Below are positions 6,533-39,836 of a DNA stretch of 46,425 bases, piece by piece. Position 1 is the stretch's first letter. Every line of letters begins with the position of its first letter. This DNA comes from Burkholderiaceae bacterium (GTDB lineage: Bacteria > Pseudomonadota > Gammaproteobacteria > Burkholderiales > Burkholderiaceae_C). The translations under genes were made by a program, and so were the position numbers. The notes under the pieces were generated by a model. The model saw nothing but the letters and a program-made list of their open reading frames with translations, was not told where the DNA came from and made no database searches. The stretch covers positions 1 to 46,425 of the forward strand of contig JANJVG010000178.1 in assembly GCA_024710165.1 (NCBI GenBank), read 5' to 3'.

Positions 6533-6967
6533 TCAGGTGCCGTGGGCTGCCAGCGCCACTTCCGACTCGATGCGCGGATAGAAGTCGCGGTTTTCGCGCT
6601 GCATGCGCTCATGCACCATGCGCAGCACGCGGTTGGCGTCGTCGCGGAAGCCCTGCTCGTCTCGGCGCACGCTCTCGGGCAGGTTCCAGCGCCGGGCAAA
6701 GGCCTCGTAAGCCTGGGCAATCGGCCCCATGTCACGCTGGTACTGCTGGCCCATGCGCGCCAGCTCGGGGTGGTGGCCGCGCTGCAGCGCCGGGTACAGC
6801 GCCTGGTCTTCCACGGCCAGGTGCAGCTTGATGGTGGAGCTCATGCGGACGATGAGCCGCGCGATGTCGCCCGCGTTGTGCGCCACCCCGGCCTGCGCCA
6901 GACGCCGCAAGGCTGCGATGCTGTCCAGGATATCTGCGTGCTGGTGTTTGAATTTGTCGATGTTCAT
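6533..6967 (-). CDS. Hemerythrin-domain protein, NorR-regulated
   Basis: 144 residues from ATG at 6965-6967. A four-helix hemerythrin-like protein of the HHE type: candidate diiron ligands are H8/H10, the LHLAVE pair H49 and E53, and H119 with E123/E125 near the C-terminus. No signal peptide or membrane segment, so cytoplasmic. It is transcribed divergently from norR; the 166-bp gap holds two NorR boxes and a -24/-12 promoter facing this gene. By analogy with norA of Cupriavidus, a diiron protein under NorR control, I infer a role in binding NO or in repair or buffering during nitrosative stress. It is not closely similar to NorA/YtfE by eye, since it lacks the DUF542 N-terminus. Confidence 0.85.
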   Translation of the reverse strand: MNIDKFKHQHADILDSIAALRRLAQAGVAHNAGDIARLIVRMSSTIKLHLAVEDQALYPALQRGHHPELARMGQQYQRDMGPIAQAYEAFARRWNLPESVRRDEQGFRDDANRVLRMVHERMQRENRDFYPRIESEVALAAHGT

Positions 6968-7024
6968 GGAAGGCTCCGTGGAAAAAAGCGCGCTGCGCTG
7001 CTTCAAAGTGAATCGCACCAACCT

Positions 7025-7043
7025 GTTTGCACAGACCGGGCCA
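7025..7043 (-). promoter_or_regulatory. Sigma-54 (-24/-12) promoter of the hemerythrin gene
   Basis: On the minus strand the sequence TGGCCCGGTCTGTGCAAAC has the required GG-N10-GC spacing (consensus TGGCAC-N5-TTGCA). Transcription would start about 60 bp before the hemerythrin ATG, and the two NorR boxes lie 45-80 bp further upstream, a usual enhancer distance. Confidence 0.7.
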
Positions 7044-7084
7044 GCCTGCAGCGCACGACCAATCAAGGGGTTACGACCGCAAAG

Positions 7085-7097
7085 GGTCATTTCGACC
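7085..7097. promoter_or_regulatory. NorR binding site 1 (GGT-N7-ACC)
   Basis: GGTCATTTCGACC fits the GGT-N7-ACC enhancer described for betaproteobacterial NorR. It lies upstream of the sigma-54 promoter of the hemerythrin gene and 36 bp before the norR start, so it could also mediate norR autorepression. Confidence 0.75.
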
Positions 7098-7109
7098 CCA
7101 TCCAAAAAG

Positions 7110-7122
7110 GGTGTTTGATACC
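7110..7122. promoter_or_regulatory. NorR binding site 2 (GGT-N7-ACC)
   Basis: GGTGTTTGATACC is a second GGT-N7-ACC site, 25 bp centre to centre from site 1 and 11 bp before the norR start codon. Several tandem boxes are normal for NorR enhancers. A third expected box is not clear. Confidence 0.72.
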
Positions 7123-7133
7123 ATGAACGGGTA

Positions 7134-8717
7134 ATGAATACCCTCGAAGAAGCCCCTTGGCTGGCGGACCTGACCACCGAGCTGCCCTCCAACCTGCGCC
7201 TGCAGCGCCTGATTGGCGGCCTGCGTGCGCATTTCTGCTGCGGCGCCGTGGCGCTGCTGCGGCTGGAGGCAGGCCACCTGCGGCCCGTGGTGGTGGACGG
7301 GCTGGTGAGCGAATCGCTGGGGCGGCGTTTTGCCGTGCACCAGCACCCCCGGCTGGCGGCCCTTCTGGCGCGCGACGAGGTCACCGTGTTTGACCACGAC
7401 AGCCAGCTCCCCGACCCCTACGATGGCCTGCTCGACACCCTGGTGGGCGAGCCGCTGCCGGTGCACGACTGCATGGGCGTGGCACTGCGTGTGGACGGGC
7501 GGCCCTGGGGCGTGCTCACGCTGGACGCGCTGCAGACCGGCACCTTCGACGCCGCCGCCCGCGCCACGCTGGCCCGCTGCGCCGTGCATGTGGAGGCGGC
7601 CGTGCGCGTCACCCGGCTGGAGCAGCAGGTGCACGCGCTGAGCCGCGCCTCCAGCCAGCACCTAGGCGAACCCGCCGACGAGCAGCACCTGCGCGCCGCG
7701 CTGGACGACAGCGAAATCCTGGGCCAGAGCGAAGCCCTGCTGCGCCTGCAGGAGGAGGTGAAGGTGGTGGCCGGCTCCGACCTGCCCGTGCTGCTGCTGG
7801 GCGAAACCGGCGTGGGCAAGGAGTTGTTTGCGCGCTTCCTGCACCGCCACTCGCCGCGCCAGGGCAAGCCGCTGGTGCATGTGAACTGCGCGGCGCTGCC
7901 CGAATCGCTGGCCGAGAGCGAGCTCTTCGGCCACCGCCGGGGCGCGTTCTCGGGCGCGGTGACCGACCGGCCCGGCCGCTTCGAGGCCGCCGAGGGCGGC
8001 ACGCTGTTCCTGGACGAAGTGGGCGAGCTGCCCCTGAGCGTGCAGGCCAAGCTGCTGCGCACGCTGCAGAACGGCGAAATCCAGCGCCTGGGCGCCGACG
8101 AGCCCCGGCGCGTGAACGTGCGCGTGGTGGCTGCCACCAACCGCAGCCTGCGCGACCATGTGCGCGACGGCAGCTTTCGCGCCGACCTGTACCACCGCCT
8201 GTCGGTCTATCCGGTGCCGATTCCGCCGCTGCGCGAGCGCGGCGACGACGTGCTGCTGCTGGCCGGGCGTTTTCTGGAGCTCAACCGCGCCCGCCTGGGC
8301 CTGCGCAGCCTGCGCCTGTCGGCCGACGCGCAAAGCGCGCTGCGCCACTACCACTGGCCCGGCAACATCCGCGAGCTGGAGCATGTGATCAGCCGCGCCG
8401 CCCTCAAGGCCCTGAGCCGGGGCGCCAGCCGCAACGACATCGTCACGCTGGAAGCCGCCCTGCTGGACCTGGACGCACTGCAGTCCCCCCCCACCGCGCC
8501 CCCCACGGACGCAGCGCCCGCACCGGCAGCGCCTTTCATGCCCTTCCCGCCCACCCGGCCCATGCCCCTGCGCGAAGCGCTGGACACCTGCCAGCGCCAG
8601 GCCATCGAAGCCGCCCTGGCACGCCACCGCGGCCAATGGGCCCGCGCCGCACGCGAGCTGGAAATCGACCCCAGCAACCTGCACAAGCTGGCCAAGCGGC
8701 TGGGGATGAAGGCATGA
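7134..8717 (+). CDS. norR: Nitric oxide-responsive sigma-54 activator NorR
   Basis: 527 residues. An enhancer-binding protein that senses NO through iron in its GAF domain and activates sigma-54 RNA polymerase. Domains: GAF at about 15-175; AAA+ at about 197-430 with Walker A GETGVGKE near 222, the sigma-54 contact loop GAFSGA near 270 (commonly GAFTGA) and Walker B GGTLFLDE near 288; a Pro/Ala-rich linker; and a Fis-type helix-turn-helix at the C-terminus (QWARAARELEIDPSNLHKL). ATG at 7134 is preceded by a three-codon ATG reading frame at 7123. Divergent from the hemerythrin gene, with two NorR boxes in between. No norB-type reductase is in the window, so its main target here is the hemerythrin. 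Confidence 0.93.
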   Translation: MNTLEEAPWLADLTTELPSNLRLQRLIGGLRAHFCCGAVALLRLEAGHLRPVVVDGLVSESLGRRFAVHQHPRLAALLARDEVTVFDHDSQLPDPYDGLLDTLVGEPLPVHDCMGVALRVDGRPWGVLTLDALQTGTFDAAARATLARCAVHVEAAVRVTRLEQQVHALSRASSQHLGEPADEQHLRAALDDSEILGQSEALLRLQEEVKVVAGSDLPVLLLGETGVGKELFARFLHRHSPRQGKPLVHVNCAALPESLAESELFGHRRGAFSGAVTDRPGRFEAAEGGTLFLDEVGELPLSVQAKLLRTLQNGEIQRLGADEPRRVNVRVVAATNRSLRDHVRDGSFRADLYHRLSVYPVPIPPLRERGDDVLLLAGRFLELNRARLGLRSLRLSADAQSALRHYHWPGNIRELEHVISRAALKALSRGASRNDIVTLEAALLDLDALQSPPTAPPTDAAPAPAAPFMPFPPTRPMPLREALDTCQRQAIEAALARHRGQWARAARELEIDPSNLHKLAKRLGMKA

Positions 8718-8782
8718 TGCTATTATTTTGATAGCTATTCGCGCTTATCCGATAAGCGACAGAGGCCAAAAACACTTAAAAA
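8718..8782 (+). repeat. Repeat family A, copy 1
   Basis: TGCTATTATTTTGATAGCT, then GCGCTTATCCGATAAGCG and AGGCCAAAAA. It is the clearest copy of a roughly 65-bp intergenic repeat found nine times in the window. It starts directly after the norR stop and ends just before the ATPase gene. Confidence 0.85.
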
Positions 8783-8789
8783 CCACCCC

Positions 8790-10082
8790 ATGATCGACCA
8801 CCTCCACCTGCGCCACATCAAGGCCTGGCACGACAGCGGGCCGGTGCGGCTGGCGCCCGTCACCATGCTGCTGGGCAGCAACTCGTCGGGCAAGTCCACG
8901 CTGCTGCAAAGCCTGCTGCTGCTCAAGCAGACCGTGGCCGCGCCCGACCGCACCGTGCACCTGCACCTGGGCCACAGCGACGCGGGCGACCCGGTGCAGC
9001 TCGGCAGCTTTGCCGACCTGCTCTCGCAGGGCGTGGCCGCGCCGCGCCACTGCAGCATGGCGCTGGGCTTTGCGCGGCCCGAGGGCGAGCGCGTGCGCCA
9101 GGGCTACTTTGCCTGCACCTACGGCCAGACCGCCCAGGGCGCCGTGGCCGTGCAGGCGCTGGAGCTGGCCACCGTGGCGCGTCGCTTTCGGGCACTGCGG
9201 CGCGCGCGCGGCGCCTACGCGCTGTATGTGGACGACGAGGCCCGCCCCCGTGGCACCAGCCCGCTGTACGCGCCCGAGCGCTCCATCGCCCTGCCCGCCC
9301 CCGCGCTGGCGCTGCTGGGGGCCGACGCGCAGCACGCGCAGCACGCGCAGGACCTGAGCCTGGCACTGCGCTGCGCGCTGGAATCCATCGTCCACCTCGG
9401 CCCGCTGCGCCGCCTGCCCGCGCGCGACCACGCCTGGACCGGCGCCCCGCCCGGCGACCTGGGCAGCGACGGCCAGCAGGCCATCAACGCACTGCTGGCG
9501 AGCGCCCTGCTGCGCACCGACACCCAGGGCCAGGTGCTGCACAAGGTGGCGCACTGGCTGGCGCGCATGGGCATGGCCGAACAGCTCAGCGTGCGCCCCG
9601 TGGGCCGCACCGGCCGCTACGAACTGCTGGTGCACCATGACGGCGTGGCCGCCAACCTGCGCGATGTGGGCGTGGGTGTGGCCCAGGTGCTGCCGGTGCT
9701 GGCCGTCGCCTACTGCGCCCCGCCGGGCAGCACCATCCTGGTGGAAGAACCCGAAATCCACCTGCACCCCCAGGCCCAGGCCGTGCTGGCCGAGGTGTTT
9801 GCCGAGGCCAGCCAGCAACGCCAGGTGCAGTTTCTCGTCGAGACACATTCCGAACACCTGTTCCGCCGCATGCAGACCCTGATCGCCCGGCGCCAGACCA
9901 GCCCCAGCCACTGCCGCATGCTGTTTGTGCAACGCCAGGGCGCACAGGCCGTGCTCGTGCCGCTGGAGGTGGACGAGTTTGGCGCCGTGCGCAACTGGCC
10001 GCCCCAGTTCTTTGGCGACGCGATGGGCGAAGCGCGCGAACAGGCCCGCGCCCGCGCCCAGCGGCTGCGAGAAGATCAGTGA
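8790..10082 (+). CDS. AAA/ABC-type ATPase with DUF3696-like C-terminus
   Basis: 430 residues. An SMC/OLD-like stand-alone ATPase: Walker A LLGSNSSGKST at residues 27-37, a central variable region, Walker B ILVEEPEIHLHP near 315 and the following VETHSEHLF near 350. The C-terminal NWPPQFFGDAM looks like the DUF3696 signature. Proteins of this class usually work with a nuclease encoded next to them, often in phage defence. The next gene is a PIN nuclease and the third an RNA ligase, all on this strand. The gap to the PIN gene (165 bp) is filled by a hairpin repeat, so joint transcription is not certain. ATG at 8790; no membrane segments. The function is inferred from domain and context only. 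Confidence 0.8.
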   Translation: MIDHLHLRHIKAWHDSGPVRLAPVTMLLGSNSSGKSTLLQSLLLLKQTVAAPDRTVHLHLGHSDAGDPVQLGSFADLLSQGVAAPRHCSMALGFARPEGERVRQGYFACTYGQTAQGAVAVQALELATVARRFRALRRARGAYALYVDDEARPRGTSPLYAPERSIALPAPALALLGADAQHAQHAQDLSLALRCALESIVHLGPLRRLPARDHAWTGAPPGDLGSDGQQAINALLASALLRTDTQGQVLHKVAHWLARMGMAEQLSVRPVGRTGRYELLVHHDGVAANLRDVGVGVAQVLPVLAVAYCAPPGSTILVEEPEIHLHPQAQAVLAEVFAEASQQRQVQFLVETHSEHLFRRMQTLIARRQTSPSHCRMLFVQRQGAQAVLVPLEVDEFGAVRNWPPQFFGDAMGEAREQARARAQRLREDQ

Positions 10083-10196
10083 CAACCCCCTGTGGCGCTT
10101 CGCGCCTTCCCCCTTCTCTTGCAGCGCTACGCGCTGCGGAAGGGGGACGCCACCAGCGCGGCGGGGCGGCCCTTGCGCGGTGGCCGCTGGCCTGGC
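10083..10196 (+). repeat. Repeat family B, copy 1 (hairpin repeat)
   Basis: Begins CAACCCCCTGTG and contains a strong hairpin (CCCCCTTCTCTTGCAGCGC against GCGCTGCGGAAGGGGG), then GCGGCGGGGCGGCCCTTGCG. Near-identical units lie at 30252-30374 (inverted) and 39719-39836. It starts at the ATPase stop codon and fills the gap before the PIN gene; it may act as a terminator or mRNA 3' stabiliser. Confidence 0.8.
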
Positions 10197-10247
10197 CGCG
10201 CCCATTGCATACATCACAAACACTCTGCGCGGAAAGGAACCATTGAG

Positions 10248-10793
10248 ATGCAGGCCCGCCTGGTGGACACCAATGTGCTCATCGTGGCCAGCGCGGCCGA
10301 CGAGGGCTCGCCCTTCCGCGCCGAATCCACCCCCGTGGAAGAGGCCGTTCTGCGCCAGCAGGTGCTGGACTGGCTCGAAGCTTTCGAGAGCGACCCCAGG
10401 CGCCATGCCGTGCTCGATGTGGACTGGCATGTCTGCGGCGAGTACCGCCACAAGCTCACCGAGCAGGACTACGGCTGGCTGGCCATGATGCACAAGATGG
10501 ACCGCGGCGAGGTCGTGTGGGTCGATGTGCTGCTGGACAAGAACGGCAACGCCGTGCTGCCCCCCGAACTGGCCGAGGCCGTGACCGACCTGGCCGACCG
10601 CAAGATGGTGGCCGCCGCGCTCGCGGCCCTGGACGCAGGCCACGCCTGCCAGATCACCAACGCCAGCGACACCGACTGGATCGACTGCCAGCAGGCCCTG
10701 CACACCGTGGGGCTGGAGGTGGAAAACCTGCTTCCCGAGTGGCTGCAAGGCCGCTGGCACCAGAAACACCCGCCCCAGCGGCGCGCAAAATAG
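10248..10793 (+). CDS. PIN-domain nuclease
   Basis: 181 residues from ATG at 10248. A probable Mg-dependent ribonuclease fold: the first strand RLVDTNVLI carries D7 and N9, E65 lies in CGEYRHKL, D117 in DLADRKMVAAAL, and the last acidic cluster is D141/D143 in NASDTDW. These are the usual PIN positions. It is longer than a VapC toxin (about 130 residues), with an extra segment at about 15-45 and a C-terminal tail, and no antitoxin gene precedes it. An in-frame upstream extension would translate the family B repeat, so I reject it. The RNA ligase starts 7 bp after its stop, so these two genes form an operon. Pairing a nuclease with an end-joining ligase suggests cut-and-reseal RNA processing. 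Confidence 0.75.
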   Translation: MQARLVDTNVLIVASAADEGSPFRAESTPVEEAVLRQQVLDWLEAFESDPRRHAVLDVDWHVCGEYRHKLTEQDYGWLAMMHKMDRGEVVWVDVLLDKNGNAVLPPELAEAVTDLADRKMVAAALAALDAGHACQITNASDTDWIDCQQALHTVGLEVENLLPEWLQGRWHQKHPPQRRAK

Positions 10794-10800
10794 GGTTCTT

Positions 10801-11481
10801 ATGTCTGAAGATTTTTTCCGCTTCCCCCACACCCCGCACATCGCCTGGCTGGCCACGGGCGAGCCGCGCGACGACAAGGTGTTCTCCCGCGCCGAGGCTG
10901 AAGAGCTGCTCAGCGGCCCCGTGGTGCTGGAAGAAAAGCTCGACGGCGCCAACCTGGGCTTCTCGGTCTCGCCCGACGGCGTGCTGCGCGCCCAGAACCG
11001 GGGCCAGTACCTGCCCCAGCCCTTCCACGGACAGTTCGCCCGCCTGGGCCCGTGGCTGGCCGCGCACGAGGACAAACTCTTCGACGCCCTGGGCACGCAC
11101 CTGGTCGCCTTTGGCGAATGGTGCGCCGCGCGCCACTCGCTCGACTACGCCACGCTGCCCGACTGGTGGATGCTGTTCGACGTGTACGACCGCCAGGAGC
11201 AGCGCTTCTGGAGCACCACGCGCCGCAACGCCTGGGCGGCCGAAATGGGCTTCAATACCGTGCCGCGCCTGTATGCCGGCGAAGTCACGCTGGACCAACT
11301 GCGCGACTGGGTGCACGCCCACGACAGCCAGTTCCGCCAGGGCCACCTGGAAGGCATCGTGATCCGGCGCGAGAACGCCGACTGGCTGGAGAACCGGGCC
11401 AAATTGGTGCGCGCGGACTTCACGCAGACCATCGAGGCGCACTGGAAGAGCCGGGCACTGGAGTGGAACCGGGTGGTTTGA
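10801..11481 (+). CDS. ATP-dependent RNA ligase (Rnl family)
   Basis: 226 residues from ATG at 10801. Nucleotidyltransferase that would seal RNA ends through a lysyl-AMP intermediate. Motifs: I EEKLDGAN with nucleophile K46; III FGEW at 104-107; IIIa LFDVYD at 125-130; IV EGIVIR at 184-189; V RAKLVR at 199-204. The length fits a core catalytic domain without large appendages. It lies 7 bp downstream of the PIN nuclease gene and two genes after a DUF3696-type ATPase. No kinase or phosphatase for healing ends is visible next to it, so its substrates may already carry 3'-OH/5'-P ends. RNA specificity is assumed from similarity; a DNA ligase role is less likely because NTP-type DNA ligases have an OB domain. 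Confidence 0.82.
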   Translation: MSEDFFRFPHTPHIAWLATGEPRDDKVFSRAEAEELLSGPVVLEEKLDGANLGFSVSPDGVLRAQNRGQYLPQPFHGQFARLGPWLAAHEDKLFDALGTHLVAFGEWCAARHSLDYATLPDWWMLFDVYDRQEQRFWSTTRRNAWAAEMGFNTVPRLYAGEVTLDQLRDWVHAHDSQFRQGHLEGIVIRRENADWLENRAKLVRADFTQTIEAHWKSRALEWNRVV

Positions 11482-30251: not shown

Positions 30252-30374
30252 TGGCCAGCGGCCACCGCGCAAGGGCCGCCAGCACATCACGGTTCGGGCG
30301 CCGGTGGCGTCCCCCTTCCGCAGCGCGCAGCGCTGCAAGAGAAGGGGGAAGCGGCGCAGCCGCTCAGGGGGATG
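30252..30374 (-). repeat. Repeat family B, copy 2 (inverted)
   Basis: Inverse of the unit at 10083-10196, with the same hairpin (CCCCCTTCCGCAGCGC / GCGCTGCAAGAGAAGGGGG). It reaches into the last codons of the TrpB-like gene, whose TGA stop lies inside it, so the gene's 3' end is repeat-derived. Confidence 0.75.
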
Positions 30375-39718: not shown

Positions 39719-39836
39719 CAACCCCCTGTGCGGCGTCGCCGCTTCCCCCTTCTCTTGCAGCGCTGTGCGCTGCGGAAGGGGGACACCGCCAGCGCGGCGG
39801 GGCGGCCCTTGCGCGGCGGTCGCTGGCCTGGGGCCG
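39719..39836 (+). repeat. Repeat family B, copy 3
   Basis: CAACCCCCTGTG, hairpin CCCCCTTCTCTTGCAGCGC/GCGCTGCGGAAGGGGG and GCGGGGCGGCCCTTGCGCGG as at 10083-10196, with a few differences. Begins 4 bp after the thioesterase stop codon. Confidence 0.85.

Follow-up and report, generated by a model that had tools for sequence, protein, structure and literature searches.

An ATPase, PIN nuclease and RNA ligase operon related to the HEC-03 candidate defence system

HEC-03, an entry of PADLOC-DB with two components, an ATPase (HEC-03B) and a PIN nuclease (HEC-03A), is reportedly among the Hma-embedded candidates that Payne et al. put forward in a 2024 preprint. According to PMC12988326, HEC stands for Hma-embedded candidate and several HECs are active, HEC-06 being named. 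PMC13092281 describes a PIN domain as recently validated in defence elsewhere and cites Payne 2024 among others. Here, we describe a three-gene cassette encoding an ATPase, a PIN nuclease and an RNA ligase at positions 8,790 to 11,481 of a 46,425-nucleotide stretch of DNA from a Burkholderiaceae bacterium (contig JANJVG010000178.1), the whole of which is referred to as the window hereafter.

The trio is real, conserved and partly catalogued, namely as HEC-03, and the ligase is an added third gene. We regard the cassette as a ligase-bearing form of this candidate defence system, in which the ATPase would gate cutting by the PIN nuclease and the ligase would reseal the cut RNA; the probability of this reading is, in our estimate, about 45%.

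Gene assignment and comparison with described systems

The cassette has the following features.

8790..10082, plus strand: ATPase of 430 residues, AAA_21/AAA_15 type with a C-terminal DUF3696, HEC-03B family (Pfam, PADLOC, conservation)
8874..8900, plus strand: GSNSSGKST, residues 29-37, which we take to be Walker A (sequence, conservation)
9744..9767, plus strand: EEPEIHLH, residues 319-326, presumably the Walker B region (sequence, conservation)
10083..10247, plus strand: 165-bp gap between the ATPase and PIN genes with a dispersed hairpin repeat, outside the operon core (genome repeat matches)
10248..10793, plus strand: PIN nuclease of 181 residues, HEC-03A family (HEC-03A match, VapC-like predicted fold)
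10266, 10440, 10587, 10596 and 10668: codons of the PIN acidic residues D7, E65, D114, D117 and D141, respectively
10801..11481, plus strand: RNA ligase of 226 residues (PF09414, 5.1e-34; invariant motif residues)
10936, plus strand: codon of the ligase lysine K46, in what we number as motif I (invariant motif residues)

HEC-03B was the top of 138 PADLOC models that matched the window ATPase (expectation value, E, 7.8e-81; 270 bits), and twelve residues (G29, N31, S32, G34, K35, S36, E319, P321, E322, H324, H326 and H353) are at least 95% conserved across 63 ATPases. The match of the window PIN protein to HEC-03A is weak (1.3e-7, 29.9 bits, residues 106-164), and all of the 71 aligned PIN relatives match the same model at E 0.001, the best at 2.1e-31. 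The predicted structure of the PIN protein has a VapC-like PIN fold, and its acidic active-site residues are conserved in the alignment. The ligase matches PF09414 with 118.3 bits (cut-off 27; E 5.1e-34), and the nucleotidyltransferase motif residues are invariant. Thus, the initial annotation, which had read a plus-strand cassette of three genes with a PIN protein and a complete set of RNA ligase motifs, is borne out: the same trio recurs as a conserved operon in other genomes, and the PIN fold was retained on structure prediction. The term "undescribed" used there has to be withdrawn, as the ATPase and the PIN protein are both components of HEC-03 and only the ligase is unmatched. At E 0.1, no PADLOC model matched the ligase, and the PIN protein matched HEC-03A only. 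Sequence searches of the PDB gave no convincing relative of the PIN protein and, for the ligase, nothing at E 1 with the single sequence and an unconvincing best profile hit (3qwu, E 0.014).

The adjacent HEC-03B and HEC-03A genes are, therefore, shared with HEC-03. The difference lies in the ligase, which is present here, while the two top HEC-03A genomes lack it. No description of a ligase as part of HEC-03 was found in the open-licence PMC papers searched; an earlier mention of the trio would be likeliest in Burroughs and Aravind 2016 or in the Payne 2024 preprint. With VapBC, the cassette shares the PIN fold and the acidic residues of the toxin; however, the partners here are an ATPase and a ligase and not a VapB-type gene. 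No VapB gene was found directly upstream of the PIN gene at the ATPase-bearing loci, where the ATPase occupies that place (60 of the 65 junctions are 20 bp or less), small genes at the 14 loci without an ATPase being outside this comparison. The window ATPase also matched NsnB (2.2e-50), AriA (1.1e-22), GajA (3.6e-11), PtuA (4.1e-11) and Old (1.7e-10), which belong to Menshen, PARIS, Gabija, Septu and OLD, respectively. The ATPases of these systems belong to the same broad superfamily and gate a partner effector, but the partners here are a PIN protein and a ligase. The Menshen partners of NsnB are NsnA and NsnC, and neither was found among the PADLOC matches of the PIN protein and the ligase at E 0.1, the scan being confined to these two neighbours. 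RNA cleavage countered by ligase repair is represented by PrrC versus Pnkp and Rnl1 of phage T4 and by HD-Pnk with its ligase. In these cases end-healing is needed and the repair enzymes are phage-borne or separate, whereas here the nuclease and the ligase lie in one operon that has no end-healing gene.

HARP, a PIN-fold RNase P, and Rnl3 likewise combine, in genetic linkage, a nuclease of the PIN superfamily and an ATP-dependent RNA ligase, and they are proposed as an RNA processing or circularisation pair in PMC12153264. It is quite unlikely that the present pair serves such a role. None of the 71 PIN members matched the HARP-type Pfam models (three families in all; E 0.01), and the ligase scored 13.6 bits on the Rnl3 model TIGR01209, for which the cut-off is 136.9. 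Furthermore, the genes of the cassette are co-directional and often overlap, whereas HARP and its ligase are mostly bidirectional according to PMC12153264, and a processing pair leaves the ATPase, which is present in most loci, without a role.

Occurrence and gene order of the trio

A total of 399 genomes of the order were searched with the PIN protein and the ligase separately. The PIN protein had a match in 8 genomes, all of which also had a ligase match, and the ligase in 19. The ligase matches with E <1e-50 fall at 12 places in 11 genomes, and each is adjoined by a PIN gene, an ATPase gene or both (in one genome, G096, the genes are split over contig ends). At three of the loci (L045, L046 and L047), tblastn with the window PIN protein gave no match, yet an open reading frame with the PIN motif is present. 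Two weaker places (L049 and L051) have longer ligases and neither a PIN nor an ATPase gene within 12 kb even by profile, and another (L048) is a ligase fragment at a contig end.

A wider ligase scan, with one genome per species, gave at least 592 stretches with the pattern, and the best 80 of at least 560 relatives were used. Adding the window and 11 other loci brings the set to 92 loci, or 89 when three repeats on the same contigs (L041, L043 and L045) are removed. Immediately upstream of the ligase, 82 of the 89 loci (81 by script and L097 by eye) have an open reading frame for a PIN protein that carries the motif. Of the other seven, five (L060, L088, L094, L110 and L115) run into the contig start and show part of a PIN gene, L086 encodes a PIN protein of full length in which G replaces D7, and L124 has a decayed PIN in two frames. 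An ATPase gene is located upstream in 66 of the 82 PIN-ligase loci, a count conditioned on the presence of the ligase and on the best 80 relatives; two of them (L056 and L059) are cut by contig starts, and the ATPase is disrupted in L039 and L102. With start codons chosen by rule, the ATPase and PIN genes overlap at 50 of 65 junctions and lie within 20 bp at 60, and the PIN and ligase genes overlap at 33 of 81 and lie within 20 bp at 77. The same gene order occurs across Pseudomonadota, Thermodesulfobacteriota, Chlorobiota and Verrucomicrobiota and on an Actinomycetota (Rhodococcus) plasmid. Because 66 of the 82 loci keep one fixed order, the adjacency is not due to chance, and the idea that three unrelated genes merely came to lie side by side, for which nothing speaks after the neighbourhood test, can practically be dismissed.

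A census independent of the ligase was made by searching 299 genomes of the phylum for HEC-03A, of which 14, including that of the window, were positive. In the 13 loci besides the window's genome, the ATPase was found in all and the ligase in 10. From both censuses taken together, three arrangements are recognized: ATPase-PIN, ATPase-PIN-ligase and PIN-ligase. A PIN gene with neither partner was not seen in these sets, the ligase-based one being unable to reveal it.

The 165-bp gap between the ATPase and PIN genes of the window contains a repeat of about 120 bp that forms a hairpin (z -3.88) and has 40 matches in the genome including itself, two further copies being located in the window (39719-39831 and 30253-30374). 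This hairpin, which had been named as a weak point of the cassette, is indeed present. The gap sequence is 84-89% identical in three loci (L052, L054 and L062) and occurs in no other gap longer than 20 bp among the loci compared, and a second copy of the cassette in the same bin has only about 10 bp between the two genes. The most fitting interpretation of the gap is that a single lineage acquired an insertion. The segment directly before the ATPase gene (8718-8789) is also a dispersed repeat, with 26 genome matches including itself. An open reading frame of 783 codons (8745-11096, minus strand) lies antisense to most of the cassette and is most likely a by-product of high G+C. The Rfam scan of the window gave no match at gathering scores, and promoter and terminator scans gave nothing exceeding chance.

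As a separate observation, an HNH_2-type endonuclease gene of about 250 residues directly follows the ligase in 12 of 88 distinct loci, the window aside (L044, L086, L088, L097, L098, L099, L100, L107, L108, L113, L120 and L129), starting -55 to +49 bp from the ligase end; that of L086 was recognized by a short match. This suggests a four-gene form of the operon.

Evolution and genomic setting

Identity clustering sorts the ATPases and the PIN proteins into types that match each other in 63 of 63 loci. Along the PIN tree (quick method) there is one switch of ATPase type, as against 11 along the ligase tree (careful method, 88 rows), where at least 10 switches are forced by well-supported branches and the shuffled mean is about 21. 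The sensor and the cutter travel as a unit, and the ligase is exchanged. This co-variation rests on the type label, because the shared tree splits are low and similar in all pairings (ligase-PIN, 15/77; ligase-ATPase, 14/59; PIN-ATPase, 15/59) and whole-tree congruence favours no gene pair.

The pairwise ratios of nonsynonymous to synonymous substitution (dN/dS, Nei-Gojobori) between the window and seven relatives were 0.41-0.53 for the ATPase, 0.21-0.31 for the PIN protein and 0.08-0.19 for the ligase, for pairs that are not independent, with each ATPase frame running between stop codons and with a few surplus codons at the beginning of some PIN frames. The near-identical L052 (0.10, 0.17 and 0.03, respectively) was excluded from these ranges. 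The values form a gradient, with a sensor that changes fast at one end and an enzyme under constraint at the other. In a rival explanation to resealing, the ligase would be part of the weapon, joining wrong ends after the PIN cut so that the RNA is locked into useless products. The conserved place of the ligase next to a nuclease whose active-site residues are intact and the formation of circles by Rnl3, the partner of HARP (PMC12153264), would both suit such a role. Nevertheless, the purifying selection seen on the ligase would be expected of any enzyme, and we consider this explanation very improbable.

In the window, the cassette is preceded by a sigma-54 activator gene with a GAF domain (7134-8717), which we presume to be NorR-like, and by a divergent hemerythrin-domain gene (6533-7384). 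The NorR-like gene lies 5' of the cassette in six related loci (L052, L053, L054, L055, L061 and L062), and at least one of ORF142, a GGDEF gene and a threonine-dehydratase-like gene lies downstream in seven (L052, L053, L055, L056, L058, L059 and L061). Such neighbours were not seen at L036, L057, L060 and L063-L066, in some cases for lack of sequence. Among 60 genomes of the family searched, seven others have a NorR homologue (E <1e-100) with no cassette protein within at most 1,500 bases on each side, though five of the seven homologues, at just 52-55% identity, may represent a different gene. The second trio of the bin (contig C86, 29822-32184; L036) is 78%, 90% and 95% identical to that of the window in the ATPase, the PIN protein and the ligase, respectively. 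Its ligase is cut by the contig end, and no NorR gene is found within the 11.8 kb read upstream. As the bin is 6.7% contaminated, this copy may belong to another strain.

The ligase also matches 21 plasmid records, and on all six of the closer plasmids read (three of Aeromonas and one each of Rhodococcus, Azotobacter and Tistrella) the ATPase, PIN and ligase genes occur in order, as confirmed by profiles. AbiEii-type and GASH-type genes flank the cassette on two Aeromonas plasmids, Hok genes lie near it on Aeromonas plasmids, and a TIR effector-type gene lies near it on the Rhodococcus plasmid. Carriage of the ligase as phage cargo was considered and rejected: all 16 matching phage records are below 60% identity, the 15 listed being 24-29%. 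Five IMG/VR loci include one at 65% (L167), the rest being 26-33%; the upstream genes of L167 are not visible because its 4,029-base contig starts at the ligase. The cassette of Lelliottia had no megablast match, which would reveal near matches only, in 20,395 E. coli records. More distant ligases (30-32% identity) adjoin a protein with HD and AAA_33 domains on four of four plasmids (L177, L178, L179 and L180, from Pseudomonas aeruginosa, Variovorax, Sphaerospermopsis and Bosea), likely an end-healing RNA repair pair. No HD and AAA_33 gene is present in the PIN-ligase operon, the rest of those genomes not being covered by the search.

Proposed function and alternatives

PIN nucleases leave 5'-phosphate and 3'-hydroxyl ends. 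According to PMC7824862, ATP-dependent ligases of this kind require just such ends. Because the ends left by one enzyme are those needed by the other, resealing would be possible without an end-healing enzyme, and we infer from this chemical match, the strongest support for the chain, how the three genes would act together. The ATPase would sense an intruder or stress and license the PIN nuclease, as its family and the ATPase-PIN co-variation suggest. The nuclease, judging from its fold, would cut one specific RNA of the cell, most probably in a loop of a tRNA or rRNA, which is where VapC toxins cut. The ligase would then reseal host RNA, both to make good any leaky cutting and to return the cell to its normal state after the trigger has passed, and the cell may thereby be protected.

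The reading is supported by the fixed gene order with its overlapping junctions, the HEC-03A and HEC-03B matches, the agreement of the ATPase and PIN types, the dN/dS gradient, the trios on plasmids, some of them beside AbiEii-type or TIR effector-type genes, and a surplus of PADLOC matches in the flanks. Several results weigh against it. No ATPase gene lies beside 14 of the 82 PIN-ligase loci, and a HEC-03B search in those 14 genomes gave 5 weak matches (best 1.2e-11) and 9 without any, so that the ATPase is not always needed. The ligase is missing at 3 of the 13 HEC-03A loci (G133, G414 and G474), the first two being the highest-scoring HEC-03A genomes, so that the PIN protein is tolerated without it. 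In one genome (G328, L050), a ligase of about 50% identity is broken over two frames with no PIN or ATPase gene within 12 kb. Nine of the 16 loci nearest to the window (L036 and L052-L066) keep at least one shared chromosomal neighbour; these neighbours are ordinary genes and form no defence island, and the base composition of the cassette is unremarkable. The surplus of PADLOC matches, which speaks for defence, is a coarse contrast: at the chromosomal loci, 83 flank proteins (from 175 flanking open reading frames) match 227 models, as compared with 8 models for 79 control proteins (95 open reading frames of 20 arbitrary stretches), but only 25 of the 227 models are listed, many of the models are near-copies matched by one small group of proteins, and the rules for choosing flank and control proteins differed slightly. 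Among the matches listed are Type I specificity subunits (2 proteins), Argonaute (2) and HNH nucleases (8), the last being a gene that is possibly part of the operon. The 14 pair-only loci and the 3 loci that lack the ligase show that the trio is not obligatory. This answers in part the test set in the initial annotation, by which a PIN-ligase pair widespread without the ATPase would mean chance adjacency; the constant order of 66 of the 82 loci discards chance. In line with the initial annotation, some plasmid copies adjoin toxin-antitoxin or effector genes.

The pair-only loci bear on two further explanations. In an RNA repair or maintenance operon, the PIN protein would trim or remove damaged RNA, the ligase would close the gap, and the ATPase would only regulate or recruit. 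This agrees with the 14 pair-only loci (11 placed near Aquabacterium by the ligase tree, the other 3 being Pseudohongiella-like), with the ordinary, recurring chromosomal neighbours of those read closely and with the ligase being the most constrained gene by dN/dS. It is nonetheless unlikely, because ATPase-PIN pairs without a ligase exist, it is the ligase that is exchanged while the ATPase and PIN types agree, and three plasmid copies adjoin toxin-antitoxin or effector genes. A toxin-antitoxin unit, in which the ligase alone would be an enzymatic antitoxin and defence would be incidental, can draw on the same pair-only loci, the VapC-like fold and the Hok genes near the Aeromonas copies; it is made improbable by the ATPase-PIN loci that have no ligase. 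As to the surroundings of the pair-only loci, six of L074, L076, L077, L078, L082, L093 and L096 adjoin a gene that we take to be cyanophycin-synthetase-like, and a divergent ATPase gene, presumably ExeA/GspA-like, was read beside L074, L076 and L096.

If the ligase-bearing form of HEC-03 does act in defence, it might be a reversible immune switch: the breaks in an essential host RNA would be directly ligatable, the ligase of the same operon would restore the RNA, infected cells would stall and recover, and the sensor-cutter pair would be swapped between lineages before the conserved ligase. We offer this extension tentatively, as a possibility that is rather doubtful at present. Cleavage of tRNA or rRNA is common among defence systems, and, to our knowledge, the RNA ligases known to repair such damage are mostly those of phages or of repair operons that stand apart. 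With the cassette, a catalogued candidate system gains a third gene that is frequently present, and HARP-Rnl3 is joined by another case in which a PIN nuclease is paired with an RNA ligase of the ATP-dependent kind. With a cutter and a chemically matching ligase in one operon, the reversibility of RNA-cleaving immunity becomes directly testable with three small genes. The tight trio in many bacteria and on some plasmids points to a putative switch for defence or stress in which the repair enzyme is built in.

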